A stretch of 34,434 nt of DNA from a virus. The stretch lies in IMG/VR virus record IMGVR_UViG_3300000117_006049, positions 1 through 34,434 of that record; one strand, given 5' to 3'. A model generated the notes under the pieces. The model saw nothing but the letters and a program-made list of their open reading frames with translations. It had not been told where the DNA came from and did not search any database. The position numbers and the translations under genes are program-made. Positions 2 through 9,566 of the stretch are shown piece after piece; position 1 is the stretch's first letter, and the number at the start of each line of letters is the position of its first letter.

Positions 2-304
2 ACTTACAATTTTGATTTTCAAAATCCAAGACACAAATACTTTATAGCAATAAATGCATTAGACGTAGCGTCTACTATATATGCTTTAGAGAATAGAAAT
101 ACTTTATATGAAGGAAACCCTATATTACCAAAAAAACCAGAACTTGAAGAATTAATATTACAAAAAGCTATAGTAGTTTATGCATTAAATTATGCAGGAA
201 TTTTTAGTACTAATCCAGATGAGGAATGGTATCTTAATGTAATGAATATAGCAGTAACTACAGCAGTGATAAACAACTTATATCAAATAAATAAATATGA
301 CTAA
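2..304 (+). CDS. C-terminal part of an unknown, possibly membrane, protein
   Basis: An open frame enters from the left edge and ends in TAA at 302-304; about 100 residues are visible and the start lies outside the window. It holds an N-A-L-D-V-A-S-T-I-Y-A-L segment, then E-G-N-P, and two later moderately hydrophobic stretches (around K-A-I-V-V-Y-A-L-N-Y-A and M-N-I-A-V-T-T-A-V). The D-x-x-S-T-x-x-A-L followed by E-x-NP pattern recalls small membrane proteins of the DUF5658 type, but this is recall only and no function is assigned. Its end overlaps the start of the cyclase gene by 8 bases, so the two are probably translated together. It is the only visible hint about the cyclase's operon. Confidence 0.7.
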   Translation, partial: TYNFDFQNPRHKYFIAINALDVASTIYALENRNTLYEGNPILPKKPELEELILQKAIVVYALNYAGIFSTNPDEEWYLNVMNIAVTTAVINNLYQINKYD

Positions 305-2087
305 ACTAATAAACCCAGTGATAATGGTAGGACTAGCAGGAATATTCTTGTGGAATCCCTATCCTTTTAAAATACTAGAACTAAAAAGTTTTGACTACTT
401 AATGTCAACACTACCACCAGTACAAAATGAGAATATACTTCTTGTCGACTTAGATGAAGAAATAATAAAAGCTTACAAAGGATATCCTCTTCCTAGAAGT
501 TTATTCGCAAGCATGATAAATAGAACTGCAGGAGTCCCAGGACTAACACTGCTAATGCCAGACCCAGATTTAAGGGGACAAGAAAATGATAAAAAACTAG
601 CGTATTCTTTATCCTCTAAACCAACTGTGTTAGCTTATGTAGCTTCAACACAAGCATTTGAGTCCGGGCCTCATGTAGGTACTGCTCAATTAGGAGAGGA
701 CCCACTACCATGGCTATTACAGTATCCAGGAATTTTAAGACAATTACCAATATTACAGCTCAACGCAAAAGGCGTAGGCTTAATAAACTCAAGTCCAGAG
801 GTAGACGGCGTCGTCAGGCGCATGCCCATAGTCGTAGAAAGTAATAATAAAATTTATCCTTCATTTGGCTTAGAAATGTTAAGAGTTGCGGTAGGCGACC
901 CAAGTTACCAAATTAAGACTAGTGAAATAGGAGTTGAGTGGTTAAGAATACCAAATTATCCAGTAGTAAATACAGACCCAAATGGTAGAATTTGGATTAA
1001 CTCTAATATAAAATTTCATAGACAAACTGCATCAGAATTTATGCAAGACCCTATAGGAGCTCCTTTTGTGATTTTTGGAGTTACAGCTGAAGGAGTTGTT
1101 AATCCTGTACCTACTGCTGGAGGAGCAAAGTATCCTCACGAAGTACAAGCAAATGTACTACACAATTTAATAGAAGGAAAGTCACTTAGTCAACCTTTAT
1201 GGGCTTTGTCTGCAGAGCTAGGAATATTACTTGCGTCTATGCTTTTAATACTTTTTGCAAGTCGAAGTGTATATTTCAGCGTGCCCATATTGGTTGCTTT
1301 ATTAGTTGGTCAAGGATACTTGGCAACTTATTTACTTAAATCTTCTTACTTGTTTGACGTTTCAGCCACAATTTTAATCGGATTTTTATTCTGGACTATT
1401 GTTACATTCCGTAATTTCATTACACAGTTTTTCTTGAGATTACAAATTAAACAACAATTTGGAACGTATGTTAGTCCGGACTTAGTAAAAAAATTACAGG
1501 ACGACCCAACATTACTGAGATTGGGTGGGGAGACAAAACGTATGACTTTTCTTTTTTCTGATATTCGAGGATTCACACCAATTTCAGAAAAATATCAAAA
1601 AAATCCTCAAGGACTTACTTTACTCATTAATCGTTTTCTCGATAACCAAACAGAAATTATACTAAAACATAAAGGTACTATTGATAAGTACATGGGGGAT
1701 TGCATTATGGCTTTCTGGAACGCCCCTCTCGATGTAGAGGAACAAGAAAGAAAAGCTACAGAATGTGCTATCGAAATGAGAATAGCCTTAGGAGAATTAA
1801 ATGATAAACTCGCAGAAGAAGGTCTGGACCAAATTAACACAGGGGCTGGAATCAACACAGGACCATGTGTTGTTGGAAATTTTGGGTCTAGTACTCGTTT
1901 TGACTATAGTGTACTTGGTGATGCCGTTAATCTAGCAGCAAGGTTAGAATCAAGCTGTAAGACCTATGATACGGATTTAATTATATCTGAGCACAGTTTA
2001 GTGGACGGATTTGATTATAAATTTTTAGATGAAGTAACGGTCAAAGGAAAGTCCGAGCCAGTTAAAATATATACCATCGAAAAATAA
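297..2087 (+). CDS. Membrane-bound class III adenylate/guanylate cyclase with CHASE2 sensor domain
   Basis: This 596-residue protein probably makes cAMP (or cGMP) from ATP (or GTP) at the inner membrane. A hydrophobic segment at about 7-20 is followed by an extracytoplasmic CHASE2 domain at about 30-290, with the typical G-V-G-L-I-N...D-G-V-V-R-R-M-P and Y-P-S-F-G-L-E segments. Three membrane helices follow at about 303-321, 326-345 and 353-372, then a cytoplasmic cyclase domain at about 410-596. Catalytic residues look complete: metal-binding D422 (FSDIRGFT) and D468 (YMGD), base-recognising K464 and D542, and N545 and R549 (DAVNLAARLE) for the transition state. K464 and D542 favour ATP. Bacterial relatives are usually somewhat longer. 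The gene overlaps its upstream neighbour by 8 bases and promoter P1 starts just after it, so it sits in a phage operon. The family call is firm; the role in infection is unknown. Confidence 0.93.
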   Translation: MTKLINPVIMVGLAGIFLWNPYPFKILELKSFDYLMSTLPPVQNENILLVDLDEEIIKAYKGYPLPRSLFASMINRTAGVPGLTLLMPDPDLRGQENDKKLAYSLSSKPTVLAYVASTQAFESGPHVGTAQLGEDPLPWLLQYPGILRQLPILQLNAKGVGLINSSPEVDGVVRRMPIVVESNNKIYPSFGLEMLRVAVGDPSYQIKTSEIGVEWLRIPNYPVVNTDPNGRIWINSNIKFHRQTASEFMQDPIGAPFVIFGVTAEGVVNPVPTAGGAKYPHEVQANVLHNLIEGKSLSQPLWALSAELGILLASMLLILFASRSVYFSVPILVALLVGQGYLATYLLKSSYLFDVSATILIGFLFWTIVTFRNFITQFFLRLQIKQQFGTYVSPDLVKKLQDDPTLLRLGGETKRMTFLFSDIRGFTPISEKYQKNPQGLTLLINRFLDNQTEIILKHKGTIDKYMGDCIMAFWNAPLDVEEQERKATECAIEMRIALGELNDKLAEEGLDQINTGAGINTGPCVVGNFGSSTRFDYSVLGDAVNLAARLESSCKTYDTDLIISEHSLVDGFDYKFLDEVTVKGKSEPVKIYTIEK

Positions 2088-2164: not shown

Positions 2165-2389
2165 ATGGACGTTAACGATGTGGCCGCAGAATTAGCTCAA
2201 CATGAGGCTGTGTGCGCAGAACGATGGAAAACCATATTTACTCGAATAGAGAAAATTGACGCTGACAGCGGAATTCGGTTTGATAGACAAGACCGAAGTA
2301 TTACTAGATTAGAAACTATACTTATAGGAGCTAGTAGTACAGGAATAGCTGCAGCAGGCGGCATTATTTGGCAATTATTGTCGATGTAA
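2165..2389 (+). CDS. Small membrane protein, holin or XhlA-like
   Basis: This 74-residue protein has a charged, helical N-terminal part (E-x-x-C-A-E-R-W-K-T-I-F-x-R-I-E-K) and one C-terminal membrane segment at about 52-72 rich in Ile, Ala and Gly. The layout matches the XhlA/haemolysin-like accessory lysis proteins of phages, which sit in the inner membrane and help holin and endolysin. The start is an ATG with a good ribosome site (AAGGGAG) seven bases upstream, directly behind promoter P1. No endolysin is visible nearby, so a lysis role is inferred from architecture alone; another small membrane protein is possible. Confidence 0.65.
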   Translation: MDVNDVAAELAQHEAVCAERWKTIFTRIEKIDADSGIRFDRQDRSITRLETILIGASSTGIAAAGGIIWQLLSM

Positions 2390-2588: not shown

Positions 2589-2687
2589 ATGCCAAAAGGT
2601 AAAGGAACTTACGGTTCTAAGGTCGGAAGACCAAAGAAAAAGAAAAGAGGAAAAAAGAAAAAGGGAATGAAACACCATGGCTGCTAG
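2589..2687 (+). CDS. 32-residue lysine-rich mini-protein
   Basis: ATG at 2589 opens a 32-residue frame ending in TAG at 2685-2687. It begins M-P-K-G-K-G-T-Y-G-S-K-V-G-R-P and continues as almost uninterrupted Lys/Arg/Gly, with no acidic residue. The M-P-K-G-x-G-T-Y-G-x-K-x-G-R-P start is a form I recall from many marine phages, which supports it as a real gene despite its size. It follows the previous stop by three bases and overlaps the next gene by 11 bases. The function is unknown; nucleic-acid binding is a reasonable guess from the charge. Confidence 0.65.
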   Translation: MPKGKGTYGSKVGRPKKKKRGKKKKGMKHHGC

Positions 2688-2865
2688 ACGCAGAACAAGA
2701 AAGAAGTCCTCAGCCAAAAAAAGAAATATACCCACAAATAAAAAACTATACGCAAGAATAAAAGCAAAAGTTAAAAGAAAGTTTGCAGTTTATCCTTCAG
2801 CATACGCAAATGCATCTCTTGTAAGACAATACAAGAAAGCAGGAGGTAAGTATAGACGTGGCTAA
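2677..2865 (+). CDS. Highly basic 62-residue protein
   Basis: About 23 of 62 residues are Lys or Arg and none is Asp or Glu. The C-terminal half contains K-V-K-R-K-F-A-V-Y-P-S-A-Y-A-N-A-S-L-V-R-Q-Y-K, a pattern I recall from small basic proteins of marine phages and some giant viruses. A role in binding or condensing DNA, or as an internal virion protein, fits the charge but is inferred. The gene overlaps both neighbours (11 bases upstream, 8 bases downstream), so the basic-protein group is tightly coupled in translation. Confidence 0.8.
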   Translation: MAARRRTRKKSSAKKRNIPTNKKLYARIKAKVKRKFAVYPSAYANASLVRQYKKAGGKYRRG

Positions 2866-3136
2866 AACTGGATTAAAAAAATGGTTTGGTCAAAAGTGGG
2901 TAAATATAGGAGCGCCTAAAAAGAAGGGGAAATATCAACCCTGTGGTCGTTCTAAAGCGAAGAAAAGTCGCAAAGGATATCCTAAGTGTGTACCAGCATC
3001 AAAAGCTGCACGCATGAGTAAGTCTCAAATACGGTCAGCCGTACGAAGAAAAAGAAAAGTCAAACAAGGAGTTGGAGGAAAACCAACTAATGTTCGTACT
3101 TTTGCAAAAAGAAAGGTAAGAAGAAGAAGAAAATAG
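2858..3136 (+). CDS. Highly basic 92-residue protein (DUF5872-like)
   Basis: The start is GTG at 2858, preceded by AGGAGGTAAG; it overlaps the previous gene by 8 bases. The protein has no acidic residue. It opens with G-L-K-K-W-F-x-Q-K-W-V-N-I-G, has Y-Q-P-C-G-R (Cys 29) and Y-P-K-C-V-P-A-S-K-A-A-R-M (Cys 44), then a long Lys/Arg tail ending in R-R-R-R-K. This is the layout of a family seen in tailed marine phages and giant viruses, which I recall as DUF5872. The two cysteines could bind metal or form a disulfide. No biochemical role is known to me; DNA or RNA binding is suggested by charge. Confidence 0.8.
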   Translation: MAKTGLKKWFGQKWVNIGAPKKKGKYQPCGRSKAKKSRKGYPKCVPASKAARMSKSQIRSAVRRKRKVKQGVGGKPTNVRTFAKRKVRRRRK

Positions 3137-4113: not shown

Positions 4114-4347
4114 ATGAAAAGAGTTGATGTTAGAAAAGCATGGTTAGATGAAACTGCTATGACTACTACAAAATACCTTTCGAAACTTCATAACAAAACT
4201 AAAGTAGGTAACCCTATGACAGATGCAGAAAGAGACTTTGCAACTGTATCAGGTGCCTACTTATACTTACTGAATCTTTGCAATGAGCATGGACTTTTTG
4301 ACGAAGATGACCCTTTTGAACTATTTAACAACGAAACATTACATTGA
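4114..4347 (+). CDS. Unknown protein next to TerL, possible terminase small subunit
   Basis: This 77-residue protein lies directly before the large terminase gene, with its stop overlapping the TTG start of that gene. It is acidic at the C-terminus (E-D-D-P-F-E-L-F-N-N) and appears helical (A-E-R-D-F-A-T-V-S-G-A-Y-L-Y-L-L-N-L). The place and size would fit a small terminase subunit, which binds the packaging site, but there is no visible helix-turn-helix and it is shorter than most such subunits (usually over 100 residues). The assignment rests on position only. Confidence 0.6.
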   Translation: MKRVDVRKAWLDETAMTTTKYLSKLHNKTKVGNPMTDAERDFATVSGAYLYLLNLCNEHGLFDEDDPFELFNNETLH

Positions 4348-5645
4348 TTGAGATAAGCAGAACAGATATAGTCCCAGATTATCTTATGGACTATCCCCAA
4401 GACAGTAGATTTATAAAACTACCTATAGAAGGCTATATGGAACTATTAGGCATAGAACCAAATTCATCACAGACAGCAATCATCAATGCTATAAACTGTC
4501 CCAAATACCGTTTTGTTACTGCAGCCGTATCTAGAAGGCAAGGCAAAACATACATATCAAACATCATAGGACAACTAGTATGTTTAGTTCCAGGAGCTAA
4601 TGTACTACTTATGTCGCCCAACTATTCACTATCCCAAATATCATTCGACTTGCAAAGAAATTTGATAAAGCATTTTGACTTAGAAGTTACTAAAGATAAT
4701 GCAAAAGATAAAGTTATAGAACTATCTAATGGTTCTACAATTCGTATGGGTTCTATTAATCAAGTAGACTCAGTAGTTGGTAGAAGTTATGATTTAATTA
4801 TATTTGATGAAGCAGCACTAACAGATGGTAGAGATGCCTTCAACGTAGCACTGAGACCCACACTAGATAAAGAAAACTCTAAAGCAATCTTTATATCTAC
4901 TCCAAGGGGTAGAAATAATTATTTTGCAGAATTTTATTATAGAGGATTTAGCGATGAGTTTCCAGAATGGTGTGCTATAAAAGCTACTTACCATGAAAAC
5001 CCTCGTGTATCAGAAGCAGATATTGTAGAAGCAAGAAAAACTATGTCTGAAGCTGAATTTGCTCAAGAGTATATGGCAGATTTTAATGTATACGAAGGAC
5101 AAATATGGGCATTTAATCATGAAAAATGTATTATGAACTTAAAAGACTTTGATACTAGCAAGATGGACGTATTCGCAGGACTTGACGTAGGGTATAAAGA
5201 CCCTACAGCATTTTGTGTAATTGCATATGACTGGGACTCACAAAACTACTACTTAGTAGACGAATACTTAGATGCTGAAAAAACAACTGAACAACATGCA
5301 ATGCAGATACAAAAACTTATACACAAATGGGATATAGATTATATTTATATTGATTCTGCAGCGCAACAAACTAGATTTGACTTTGCACAAAACTATGACA
5401 TCACTACTATTAATGCAAAAAAATCAGTACTAGATGGAATAGGATTTGTTGGTGGAATTGTAGACAATGAAACATTACTTGTTGACCAACAATGCAAAGA
5501 ATCTCTCTCATGTTTAGACCAATACCAATGGGATCCCAACCCTAATTTAATGAGAGAGAAACCAAAACATGACGGGTCATCTCATATGGCAGATGCTATA
5601 CGATATGCCCTGTATACATTTGAAACCTCAATTACTACCTTTTAG
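4344..5645 (+). CDS. terL: Terminase large subunit (DNA packaging motor and nuclease)
   Basis: This 433-residue protein pumps phage DNA into the prohead using ATP and cuts the concatemer. The ATPase domain has a Walker A variant S-R-R-Q-G-K-T (63-69), Walker B L-I-I-F-D-E-A (151-157) and the coupling motif F-I-S-T-P-R-G (183-189). The RNase H-like nuclease domain has D281 (A-G-L-D-V-G-Y-K-D-P), D337 (I-Y-I-D-S-A) and D417 (H-M-A-D-A-I-R-Y-A), consistent with the three metal-binding acids. The start is TTG 4344, overlapping the previous stop; the next in-frame ATG (4386) lacks a ribosome site. The length is normal for the family. Promoter P2 follows directly. Confidence 0.96.
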   Translation: MIEISRTDIVPDYLMDYPQDSRFIKLPIEGYMELLGIEPNSSQTAIINAINCPKYRFVTAAVSRRQGKTYISNIIGQLVCLVPGANVLLMSPNYSLSQISFDLQRNLIKHFDLEVTKDNAKDKVIELSNGSTIRMGSINQVDSVVGRSYDLIIFDEAALTDGRDAFNVALRPTLDKENSKAIFISTPRGRNNYFAEFYYRGFSDEFPEWCAIKATYHENPRVSEADIVEARKTMSEAEFAQEYMADFNVYEGQIWAFNHEKCIMNLKDFDTSKMDVFAGLDVGYKDPTAFCVIAYDWDSQNYYLVDEYLDAEKTTEQHAMQIQKLIHKWDIDYIYIDSAAQQTRFDFAQNYDITTINAKKSVLDGIGFVGGIVDNETLLVDQQCKESLSCLDQYQWDPNPNLMREKPKHDGSSHMADAIRYALYTFETSITTF

Positions 5646-5716: not shown

Positions 5717-6088
5717 ATGGAACTAAAAAGAGATTTAGTTAAATACGTAAGAGATAAAGCCAAATCACAATATAATAAGAAAGACACTTGCTATATATGT
5801 GGAGCAGGCGAAAATTTAGATTTTCATCACTTTCATGGACTGACCGAACTTCTAGAAACTTGGTTAAAAAGAAACAAAATAACTATTACAAATGAACAAG
5901 AAATACTAGATATAAGAAAGCAGTTCATCGATGAAAATTATGTAGAAGTGTATAACGAATGTGTAACACTTTGCCATACTCATCATTTACGTTTGCATTC
6001 AATATATGGAAAAAGACCCAAATTGATAACAGCAAAGAAACAACAACGGTGGGTCGAGAAACAGAGAGACAAATATGGCATGGTATGA
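5717..6088 (+). CDS. HNH endonuclease
   Basis: This 123-residue protein has the zinc pairs C25-x2-C28 (C-Y-I-C-G) and C86-x2-H89 (L-C-H-T-H-H), the histidine pair H37-H38 (L-D-F-H-H-F-H) and H94, the usual make-up of an HNH nuclease. Phage HNH proteins encoded beside the terminase and portal genes, such as HK97 gp74, are known to assist terminase cleavage. That role is likely here given its place between terL and portal; a free-standing homing nuclease is the alternative. It is first in the P2 operon and overlaps the portal gene by 14 bases. Confidence 0.88.
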   Translation: MELKRDLVKYVRDKAKSQYNKKDTCYICGAGENLDFHHFHGLTELLETWLKRNKITITNEQEILDIRKQFIDENYVEVYNECVTLCHTHHLRLHSIYGKRPKLITAKKQQRWVEKQRDKYGMV

Positions 6089-7286
6089 TAGATTTTTAGG
6101 ACGAGATAGCAAGGAAAAACTTAATCCTTCGCAATACGTTATTTCTAGAAATGAAGGAATGACTGTTGACTCGCAAGAAAGAACCATTAACTATAAAAAT
6201 GCATATGAACAATTAGAGATAGTTAATAGAGCGGTTAATATGATTGTTGACGATGTTGCAGAAATACCTTTCACTGTTGGCGAGCCTGTAAAAGGTTTTT
6301 CAAGTGTTGTAAAAAATGTTCGTAAATCAAGAGTAAATTTACTACTTAATCACGAACCAAATCCTTTTCAGGATATAAACACTTTCAAAAGAAACTTAAT
6401 TATTGACTTATTAATAGATGGAAATATATTTATTTACTATGATGGAGCGCATCTTTATCATTTACCAGCAGAAAAAGTTAGAATATATACTGATAAAGAT
6501 ACTTACATAGAAAAATTTACTTATGATGGAAGCATAGACTATAGTGTAAATGAAATCATACATATAAAAGAAAACAGTTTCAAATCAATTTATAGAGGCG
6601 TACCAAGACTAAAACCTGCATTAAGAACTATGCAGTTATTGTCTAGTATGAGAAACTTCCAGGATAACTTCTTTAAAAATGGAGCAGTGCCAGGACTAGT
6701 ACTTAAAAGCCCTAATACTCTTTCAGAAAAAATTAAAGAAAGAATGCTACAAGCATGGGTTGCAAGATATAACCCAGCATCAGGCGGACGTAGACCACTA
6801 TTTTTAGATGGTGGATTAGAAGTAGAAAATTTAACAGAAATAAGTTTTAAAGATTTAGACTTCCAAGATGGAATCAAATCAAATGAAAGAATTATATTAG
6901 AAGCGATGGGAATACCACCAATTCTATTAGACGGAGGGAATAATGCAAACATTAGACCCAACCATAGACTTTACTATCTTGAAACTATCCTACCAATCGT
7001 AAGAAAGATGGGGTATGCACTAGAAAGATTTTTTGGTTTTCAAATTTCAGAGGACGTAACAGATATACCTGCTTTACAACCTGAATTAAGAGACCAAGCA
7101 GCTTACTATGCAACACTAGTTAATACTGGAATATTCAGTGCTAACGAAGCAAGAGAAGCCTTAGGTAAAGAACCAGTAGAAGGATTTGACGAGCCAAGAG
7201 TACCTGCAAATATAGCAGGCTCAGCAGCAAATCCCGAAGAAGGTGGTAGACCACCACAAGACGAGGAAAATATAAATGGCGAATAA
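6075..7286 (+). CDS. Portal protein (HK97 family)
   Basis: This 403-residue protein would form the twelve-subunit ring at the head vertex through which DNA passes. The sequence has the layout of the HK97-type portal family: an early R-A-V-N-M-I-V-D-D-V-A segment, L-L-I-D-G-N-I-F-I-Y in the middle, and the conserved helix region N-E-R-I-I-L-E-A-M-G-I-P-P-I-L-L-D-G (about 275-292) followed by the long helix leading to I-L-P-I-V-R-K-M. The C-terminal tail is Pro, Glu and Gly-rich and probably disordered. The length is typical. It overlaps HNH upstream and the small gene downstream by 11 bases. Confidence 0.93.
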   Translation: MAWYDRFLGRDSKEKLNPSQYVISRNEGMTVDSQERTINYKNAYEQLEIVNRAVNMIVDDVAEIPFTVGEPVKGFSSVVKNVRKSRVNLLLNHEPNPFQDINTFKRNLIIDLLIDGNIFIYYDGAHLYHLPAEKVRIYTDKDTYIEKFTYDGSIDYSVNEIIHIKENSFKSIYRGVPRLKPALRTMQLLSSMRNFQDNFFKNGAVPGLVLKSPNTLSEKIKERMLQAWVARYNPASGGRRPLFLDGGLEVENLTEISFKDLDFQDGIKSNERIILEAMGIPPILLDGGNNANIRPNHRLYYLETILPIVRKMGYALERFFGFQISEDVTDIPALQPELRDQAAYYATLVNTGIFSANEAREALGKEPVEGFDEPRVPANIAGSAANPEEGGRPPQDEENINGE

Positions 7287-7527
7287 AAAAGTCGTACTAA
7301 AACAATTAGCTGAGTACTTCAGCAAAAAAGGACATATGATGAGTGCTACAGAATACAAAGCAGCCACAGATACTCCAATGCGATTCATGATTGCAAAAAG
7401 ACCATTCGGTTCTTGGGGTAGAATGCAGCAGATGTGTAAAGTAAATCACGCAGAAATGTTTGAAGTAAAAGAAGCGCCTAAAGCCGCTAAGCCAGCCCCT
7501 AAAAAGGTTGATAAGACAGCAAAATAA
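7276..7527 (+). CDS. Small protein with one homing-endonuclease-associated repeat
   Basis: Residues 5-52 fit the short DNA-binding repeat found beside HNH homing endonucleases: a helix (V-V-L-K-Q-L-A-E-Y-F), a T-E-Y segment and the signature R-P-F-G-S-W-G-R-M. The remaining tail is Lys, Ala and Pro-rich (A-A-K-P-A-P-K-K). There is no nuclease centre in this protein. It sits between portal and the protease-capsid gene and overlaps both (11 bases upstream; TAATG downstream). A DNA-binding partner of the HNH protein or a domesticated remnant of a homing element is possible; a direct structural role cannot be excluded. Confidence 0.7.
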   Translation: MANKKVVLKQLAEYFSKKGHMMSATEYKAATDTPMRFMIAKRPFGSWGRMQQMCKVNHAEMFEVKEAPKAAKPAPKKVDKTAK

Positions 7528-9566
7528 TGAATAAACTATTTAACATAACATCTACTTTTAAAACATTAGGAGAAAACGATGATGGTGGGTTAGACATCAA
7601 AGGTTTTGCTAGTACTAATGGTAAAGACCGTGCAGGAGATATCGTTGAACACGATGCATGGCTTAAAGGCGGATTAGACAATTTTAAAAACAACCCTGTT
7701 ATATTATTTAACCATAACTATGACAGACCTATCGGTAGAGCTACTGGTATAGGTGTCGGCGACAAAGGATTAGAGCTTAATGCTAGAATCTCGAAGTCAG
7801 CTGGTGAAATTAAAGATTTAATTAAAGACGGTGTCCTTGGAGCTTTTTCTGTTGGTTTCAGAGTTAAGGACGCTGACTATATGACAGAAACCGACGGATA
7901 TAGGATAAAGGACGCAGAGCTTTTTGAAGTATCAGTAGTTACAGTTCCCTGTAACCAAGCTGCTACTTTTTCAGTTGCCAAATCATTTGACAACATGGAA
8001 GAATACAATAAGTTTAAGCAAACTTTTAGCAATCAGGCTAACTCAATTAATTCAGCAGATGCTGTTGAAGTCGAGCAGCCAAAAGGGGAATTATCCCAAG
8101 AAACGGAGAAATCTATGTCAAATGACAAAAATATAACTCCTGAGAGCTTTGACCTTGAAGCATTCGCAAAGAAAGTAGCAGAAGATACTGCGACTAAAAT
8201 TGCAATGCAACAAGCAGAACAAAAAGCTAAAGCACAGGCAGATGCAGATGAGAAATTAGCTGTAGAAACTGAGCAGAAGGCTGTTGAAGAAGCTAAGCAG
8301 GAAGAACAAAAACAAGTAGTAACATCAGTTATTACTGGAGCTGAAAAGCTTATGTCTGATGTTGAGACAAGAGTTAATGAAAAGCACGAAGACCTTGAAA
8401 GAGTAGTCAAAGAGCTAGAAGCTAACTTGGTTGAGAAGTCTGATGAAATCATGAAAATGAGAGAGTCAAAAAGAATATTCTCAGACAGACAAGGAAATGG
8501 CGACTGGAAAAAAGCGTTTGAGAATGACATTCTTGATGCAAAATTTGCTGGTTTAGCTACAGGTAAAGGTTGGAACTCTGACTACGCGAAAGACGTAATG
8601 CAGAAAGTTAATCAAATGTCAGGTGTTGATGTATCATCAGCTGATTTTGAGCAAGTTGTTTCAACAAACGTAGAAAGAGATATTCAGAATGAATTAGTAC
8701 TTGCACCGTTATTTAGAGAAATCCAAATGACTTCAGCAACTCAAATTCTTCCTATCTTACCAGATGCAGGTTATGCTGAATTTACAGCTAACCAAATCGC
8801 TTCAGGTTCTGCACCTCATGGTAACTTAGACCCAAGAGGCGATGCTTATGACCCTGCAAACGGTGCTGGTATAGTTATGGCTGAAAGAACGCTTTCAACT
8901 AAAAAACTTATTTCACAATCTTACTTAGGTAACGAAACTGAAGAGGATGCAATCATGCCAATCCTACCACTAATAAGAGAATCTATGGTTAGATCTCATG
9001 CTAGAGGTATTGAAAACGCAATCTTAGCTGGTGACGATGCAGACGGCGTATATGGTACTTCAGGTGCTACATTCGAAGGTCTACTTCACTTAGCAAGAAA
9101 CGATTCAGACTTAACTCAGTCAGCAACAGCTTTTGCTTCTGACTCACTAACAGCTTTACAGCTATTAGCAGCTAGAAAGAACATGGGCAAATATGGTTTA
9201 AATCCATCTGATGTTGTTTACATTGTATCACAAAGAGGATACTATGAGTTACTAGAAGATGCTGAATTCCAAGATGTTAACTTAGTTGGTGACATGGCTA
9301 CTAAAATCAGTGGCGAAATTGGTTCAGTATTCGGTTCTAAAGTAATCGTATGTGATGAGTTCGCAACTCCAGCAGTAAGTAAATTCCACGCTTGTGCAGT
9401 TTACGCTAGAAACTACGTAATGCCAAGACTCAGAGGTGTAACCATCGAGTCTGACTACGAAGTAGCTTCACAAAGAACAGTACTAGTTGCTTCACAAAGA
9501 CTTGGTTTCATTGATTTAATCGATGGCGCTACTTCTAAGTGGGCTCTACAGTACAAAGCTAGTTAA
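7527..9566 (+). CDS. Prohead protease-scaffold-major capsid protein fusion (HK97 fold)
   Basis: One 679-residue frame carries three modules. Residues about 10-150 are a prohead protease of the HK97 (U35) type, with candidate catalytic H63 (F-N-H-N-Y-D-R-P-I-G), S108 (G-A-F-S-V-G-F) and E134 (F-E-V-S-V-V-T-V-P). Residues about 155-315 are a charged coiled coil rich in Ala, Glu, Lys and Gln, as in the delta/scaffold domain. Residues about 320-679 are the capsid shell protein, with typical segments such as A-E-R-T-L-S-T-K-K-L, G-I-E-N-A-I-L-A-G-D and A-R-N-Y-V-M-P-R-L-R-G-V. Usually protease and capsid are separate genes, though fusions exist. After cleavage the protease and scaffold leave the head. 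An internal ribosome site at 8105 may yield protease-free capsid protein. Confidence 0.93.
   Translation: MNKLFNITSTFKTLGENDDGGLDIKGFASTNGKDRAGDIVEHDAWLKGGLDNFKNNPVILFNHNYDRPIGRATGIGVGDKGLELNARISKSAGEIKDLIKDGVLGAFSVGFRVKDADYMTETDGYRIKDAELFEVSVVTVPCNQAATFSVAKSFDNMEEYNKFKQTFSNQANSINSADAVEVEQPKGELSQETEKSMSNDKNITPESFDLEAFAKKVAEDTATKIAMQQAEQKAKAQADADEKLAVETEQKAVEEAKQEEQKQVVTSVITGAEKLMSDVETRVNEKHEDLERVVKELEANLVEKSDEIMKMRESKRIFSDRQGNGDWKKAFENDILDAKFAGLATGKGWNSDYAKDVMQKVNQMSGVDVSSADFEQVVSTNVERDIQNELVLAPLFREIQMTSATQILPILPDAGYAEFTANQIASGSAPHGNLDPRGDAYDPANGAGIVMAERTLSTKKLISQSYLGNETEEDAIMPILPLIRESMVRSHARGIENAILAGDDADGVYGTSGATFEGLLHLARNDSDLTQSATAFASDSLTALQLLAARKNMGKYGLNPSDVVYIVSQRGYYELLEDAEFQDVNLVGDMATKISGEIGSVFGSKVIVCDEFATPAVSKFHACAVYARNYVMPRLRGVTIESDYEVASQRTVLVASQRLGFIDLIDGATSKWALQYKAS
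8105..8117 (+). promoter_or_regulatory. Internal ribosome binding site and ATG inside protease-capsid gene
   Basis: GGAG at 8105-8108 lies six bases before ATG 8115-8117, which is Met197 in the frame of the fusion. Starting here would give a 483-residue scaffold-capsid protein without the protease. The spacing and strength match the best ribosome sites in this window (for example those before 3848 and 12199). Confidence 0.6.

Follow-up and report, generated by a model that had tools for sequence, protein, structure and literature searches.

A CHASE2 class IIIb cyclase gene in T5-like marine siphoviruses and its association with the phage curli module

What use might a bacteriophage have for a membrane receptor that makes a cyclic nucleotide? 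The question is raised by a 34,434-nucleotide stretch of viral DNA (hereafter the window; IMG/VR record IMGVR_UViG_3300000117_006049 over its full length, without end repeats), at the left end of which a gene for a CHASE2 cyclase stands beside virion genes. Here, we describe the gene and its carrier phage, place the cyclase among its phage and bacterial relatives, and weigh the roles that have been or could be proposed for it.

The cyclase gene and its carrier phage

The initial annotation of this locus described a complete phage-encoded CHASE2 membrane cyclase with four membrane segments, a description with which both the Pfam matches and the helices of an AlphaFold2 model agree. The open reading frame is free of internal stops, and its 596-residue product matches the Pfam models CHASE2 (residues 13–317, E = 6.6e-29) and Guanylate_cyc (residues 413–595, E = 4.8e-20) with scores well above the curated cut-offs. 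The model (mean pLDDT 89, pTM 0.68) places helices at approximately residues 5–19, 303–321, 325–348, and 356–388, with the first two flanking the CHASE2 fold and with the cyclase domain in the cytoplasm; the helix at 356–388 runs on into the cytoplasm as a signalling helix. Hydropathy alone misses the first helix. The predicted arrangement, CHASE2 between one helix and three later ones, is that of a CHASE2 receptor. The features of the window, all on the plus strand, are as follows.

2..304, plus: last 100 residues of a small secreted or membrane protein gene, open at its 5' end and sharing 8 nt with the start of the cyclase gene
297..2087, plus: CHASE2 class IIIb adenylate cyclase, 596 residues, intact (assigned from reading frame, Pfam, residues, dN/dS, and model)
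309..353, plus: first membrane helix, residues 5–19 (model)
333..1247, plus: CHASE2 domain, predicted extracytoplasmic (HMM match at residues 13–317 and model)
1203..1460, plus: three membrane helices, residues 303–321, 325–348, and 356–388 (hydropathy and model)
1533..2081, plus: class III cyclase domain, residues 413–595 (Pfam and structure comparison)
1560..1562, plus: first metal-binding Asp, D422, conserved without exception in the 75 phage and 75 bacterial copies compared
1686..1700, plus: K464 (ATP-type base recognition) to D468 (second metal Asp), from residue alignment
1908..1943, plus: S538 (in place of the base-recognising Asp) with N545 and R549 (transition-state pair), from residue alignment
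2165..2389, plus: 74-residue protein with a coiled coil and a C-terminal membrane helix, directly 3' of the cyclase, holin-like by appearance only
4344..5645, plus: T5-type terminase large subunit, about 49% identical to those of T5-like phages
6075..7286, plus: portal protein, about 41% identical to those of T5-type phages
7527..9566, plus: prohead protease (S78) and major capsid protein in a single 679-residue reading frame, 33–38% identical to those of T5-type phages

Comparison with close relatives gave dN/dS ratios of 0.04–0.07 for the cyclase domain and 0.11–0.22 for CHASE2, dS being high for the more distant pairs, and because of these ratios we regard 297–2087 as a maintained gene under purifying selection rather than a chance reading frame.

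In canonical adenylate cyclases the second base-recognition position is Asp, whereas Ser or Thr at this position is the class IIIb pattern. The initial annotation stated that the metal, base-recognition, and transition-state residues were all present; this holds for D422 and D468 (both in 75/75 full-length phage copies), for K464 (in all 75 full-length phage copies aligned), and for N545 (74/75) and R549 (75/75), but not for the second base position, which is S538 rather than Asp. This Ser is kept in 74 of the 75 phage copies and aligns with a Thr in both CyaB and CyaC. Structure comparison matched the domain to Pseudomonas CyaB (3r5g), Spirulina CyaC (1wc1), and Synechocystis Cya2 (2w01), with which the phage protein shares the catalytic fold and residues but not the sensor domains. 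Judged by its metal, base, and transition-state residues, the phage protein thus belongs to class III, subclass IIIb. The position of K464 is Lys in the solved adenylate cyclases CyaB and CyaC, whereas Cya2, a guanylyl cyclase that makes cGMP, has Glu there, and ATP is therefore the likely substrate of the phage enzyme.

Downstream of the cyclase lie terminase, portal, protease-capsid, tail tube, tape measure, and tail J genes, which bears out the earlier statement that it adjoins virion genes; the overlap of its start with a small upstream gene, also stated there, amounts to the 8 nt shared with 2..304. By these genes the carrier is a marine T5-like siphovirus, for which no close isolate was found at the DNA level; no tRNA genes were found in a 75.5-kb relative. 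A chimeric join or prophage edge at about position 2087 could be excluded, since terminase follows the cyclase in 40/40 relatives with enough sequence (among the best 80 of at least 599 encoding stretches in IMG/VR, to which the counts of siphovirus relatives below also refer). The 74-residue protein lies just downstream of the cyclase in 76/80 siphovirus relatives. Beyond it, at 2677–3136, are two tiny, very basic reading frames that match different halves of the DUF5872 profile; one belongs to the family (4.4e-9), and the other scores below the threshold.

The curli module and the descent of the phage cyclases

The window starts inside the gene preceding the cyclase and holds no curli or FecR gene. 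Among its relatives, all 27 siphovirus loci that extend 5.4 kb or more upstream (from the best 80 of at least 599) encode CsgF, CsgG, curlin, and FecR upstream of the cyclase. No contig was found that overlaps and extends the left end of this record, which probably truncates the same module here; the curli context was missed by the initial annotation because these genes would fall beyond that end. Homologues of the truncated gene at 2..304 are about 140–180 residues long and in many relatives separate FecR from the cyclase (e.g., L042:7627-8073; L numbers are our labels for related loci), and the 8-nt overlap with the cyclase recurs in relatives such as L007, L008, L029, and L042. The family is uncharacterised, with a signal-like N-terminus and a conserved E-x-N...P...K motif, and returned no Pfam match.

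The same kind of module has been described in other marine phages. A curli (type VIII secretion) module that includes FecR and an adenylate cyclase was described from podo- and myoviruses in 2022 (PMC9599517), and curli genes have been reported in pelagimyophages (PMC7029224) and in the Methylophilales phage Melnitz, whose cultures were not seen to clump (PMC9004378). Both the Pelagibacter phage HTVC008M (AGE60353) and Melnitz carry annotated orthologues of the cyclase, 39% and 36% identical to the window protein, respectively, in the order CsgF-CsgG-curlin-FecR-curlin-cyclase. The supposition that no described phage carries such a receptor thus has to be abandoned, as these annotations exist and the cyclase is discussed as part of the curli module (PMC9599517). 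FecR and the cyclase both go unmentioned in the text of the Melnitz paper (PMC9004378). The gene is real and conserved, and its kind was already known. In HTVC008M, as in the siphoviruses, the orthologous cyclase comes last after csgF, csgG, curlin, and FecR and belongs to the same phage clade; the siphovirus loci differ in often adding the 140–180-residue gene between FecR and the cyclase, and their cyclases are about 37–39% identical to HTVC008M-type copies. Melnitz shares the gene order but is a T4-like myovirus of OM43. No Rfam match suggesting riboswitch control as in Melnitz was obtained in six loci.

In a careful tree, all phage cyclases form one clade (support 97/95), a test that the initial annotation had suggested, and the window protein falls among those of phage curli-FecR-cyclase modules. 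Within it, the siphovirus copies form a deep clade of their own (97/94; this group agrees with that in a larger, quicker tree) beside a second clade (100/99) that unites HTVC008M-like and Melnitz-like copies with related ones. Because the siphovirus clade is as deep as the myovirus one, its cyclase is not a recent copy from pelagimyophages. The pelagiphage module is known from myo- and podoviruses, whereas the window phage is a siphovirus; we found no earlier report of the module in siphoviruses in the literature under open licence, and this lineage appears to be previously unreported. The curli-cyclase module is thereby extended to a third phage type, the T5-like siphoviruses, a widespread uncultured group.

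The sister group of the phage cyclases consists of two Caulobacteraceae curli-module cyclases (L084 and L289), with the other bacterial CHASE2 cyclases outside at 100/100. A bacterial curli operon can thus include both FecR and the cyclase: the Caulobacteraceae chromosomes keep the curlin-FecR-cyclase order, with FecR overlapping the cyclase, which is 44% identical to the window protein. The operon differs from the phage module in being cellular, in its GC content of 54–58%, and in a cyclase of 688 residues with a C-terminal extension, and it sits among ordinary chromosomal genes (TonB receptor and S9 peptidase; amidohydrolase and acyl-CoA dehydrogenase). Its position in the tree agrees with the alphaproteobacterial origin argued previously (PMC9599517). 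Separately, phage contigs turned up inside bacterial MAGs at two further loci, L086 and L087, and, on weaker evidence, at L109; the MAG labels around these three are Flavobacteriaceae, Synechococcus, and Sphingobacteriales.

FecR as candidate input and the possible roles of the cyclase

FecR is the steadiest partner of the phage cyclase. In 35 of 38 siphovirus loci (among the matches listed), a same-strand FecR gene is found no more than 2 kb upstream of the cyclase, and in six loci (L013, L017, L020, L075, L080, and L081) the FecR stop and the cyclase start share 4 nt. A hydrophobic N-terminus, consistent with export, is present in 79/83 phage FecRs. The pairing is also found in bacteria: FecR occupies the first upstream kilobase of 7/48 bacterial CHASE2 cyclases, compared with 1 in 432 other upstream kilobase bins, several of the seven loci being related rather than independent and curli being absent there. 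A Burkholderia biofilm operon likewise encodes a secreted FecR-domain protein beside a CHASE2 membrane sensor (PMC5192318); it differs in having a histidine kinase output, a FecR with LysM, no curli genes, and a non-phage setting. Its CHASE2 protein is a histidine kinase with a response regulator, whereas the output domain of the window protein is a cyclase. In Sinorhizobium meliloti, a CyaD1 construct lacking CHASE2 gave constitutive cAMP (PMC5498481). From the FecR linkage, the Burkholderia pair, and the behaviour of CyaD1 without CHASE2, we infer that CHASE2 reads FecR, which would give this domain a concrete candidate partner in phages, Caulobacteraceae, and other bacteria; the co-occurrence could instead reflect co-transfer.

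The reading that we favour, and hold to be rather probable, is that the cyclase is the terminal cistron of the phage curli module, its CHASE2 domain reading the state of FecR and its class IIIb domain making cAMP. The module would run csgF, csgG, one or more curlins, fecR, accessory genes, and the cyclase last. Its product, a predicted homodimeric membrane receptor, would expose CHASE2 to the periplasm, where it may read the co-expressed FecR-domain protein and, through it, report curli export or envelope state; the membrane helices would pass the signal to the cyclase domain, which would convert ATP to cAMP. The cAMP would act on a host receptor, since a survey of 12 phage records, of which two are complete isolate genomes and several are fragments, revealed no recognisable cNMP-binding protein. 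Autoregulation through CRP was considered and rejected, as CRP-type sites (TGTGA-N6-TCACA-like) showed no excess (8 seen versus 16.7 expected).

The foremost alternative, which we consider possible but unlikely, is general host reprogramming, in which cAMP shifts CRP-type regulation or metabolism and the curli genes are merely neighbours in a co-inherited island. The intact active site and the need for host factors to read the cAMP speak for this, and many Alphaproteobacteria have CHASE2 cyclases without curli. However, the order and linkage of FecR and curli genes are kept across deep divergence, both among phage lineages that are unrelated and in Caulobacteraceae, and purifying selection on CHASE2 is unexpected for a plain source of cAMP. 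Less probable still is a timing or lysis sensor, in which the curli-pore proteins would form a gated pore and the cyclase would link the state of the envelope to the close of the infection cycle. The Melnitz authors proposed a CsgG/CsgF pore for lysis (PMC9004378), and the module lies just before the late genes, next to the small holin-like protein, but that protein is called so by appearance only, and the curlin subunits and FecR conserved beside the pore would be superfluous to a pore-only role.

It is improbable that the protein makes or perturbs immune cyclic nucleotides, whether as a Pycsar-type cyclase or as an anti-defence decoy. The cyclase domain does score against PADLOC PycC models (best 6e-28), as would be expected of any class III cyclase, and the Lys and Ser base residues fit adenylate cyclases. 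At one Caulobacteraceae locus, 440 nt separate the orthologous cyclase from a downstream gene of the Pycsar effector family PycTM (L084:12461-13054, in a MAG), but the second Caulobacteraceae copy has no PycTM beside it, and searches of the window and of 18 further phage records revealed none. Finally, some published phage curli modules have no cyclase (PMC9599517), so that it is dispensable for phage curli, but that it is a non-functional passenger of the island is very hard to reconcile with the dN/dS of its catalytic domain and the invariance of its catalytic residues.

Returning to the FecR-CHASE2 sensor, phage FecRs may hold a clue to its stimulus. A curlin-like motif lies within the last 16 residues of 58/83 module phage FecRs, compared with 0/1697 other windows of the same proteins and 0/19 bacterial FecRs (e.g., L042:6600-7709; LNIIQ...GQDNEITIQQ in myoviral copies). 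Because the motif was picked after viewing the sequences and the Pfam curlin model makes no call on this strand, we treat it as a lead only. Since phage FecRs end in such a strand, FecR could bind the nascent amyloid or its exporter and gate the cyclase, the pair forming a dedicated fibre-status sensor that bacteria reuse elsewhere, a proposal that we put forward tentatively and think doubtful as it stands. If true, the phage would have a cAMP readout of curli assembly, and bacteria would use the pair with other surface structures. The T5-like phage contig that supplies the FecR example above also carries NifU/IscU-like and IscA-like Fe-S assembly genes upstream of its curli module (L042:2988-3777).
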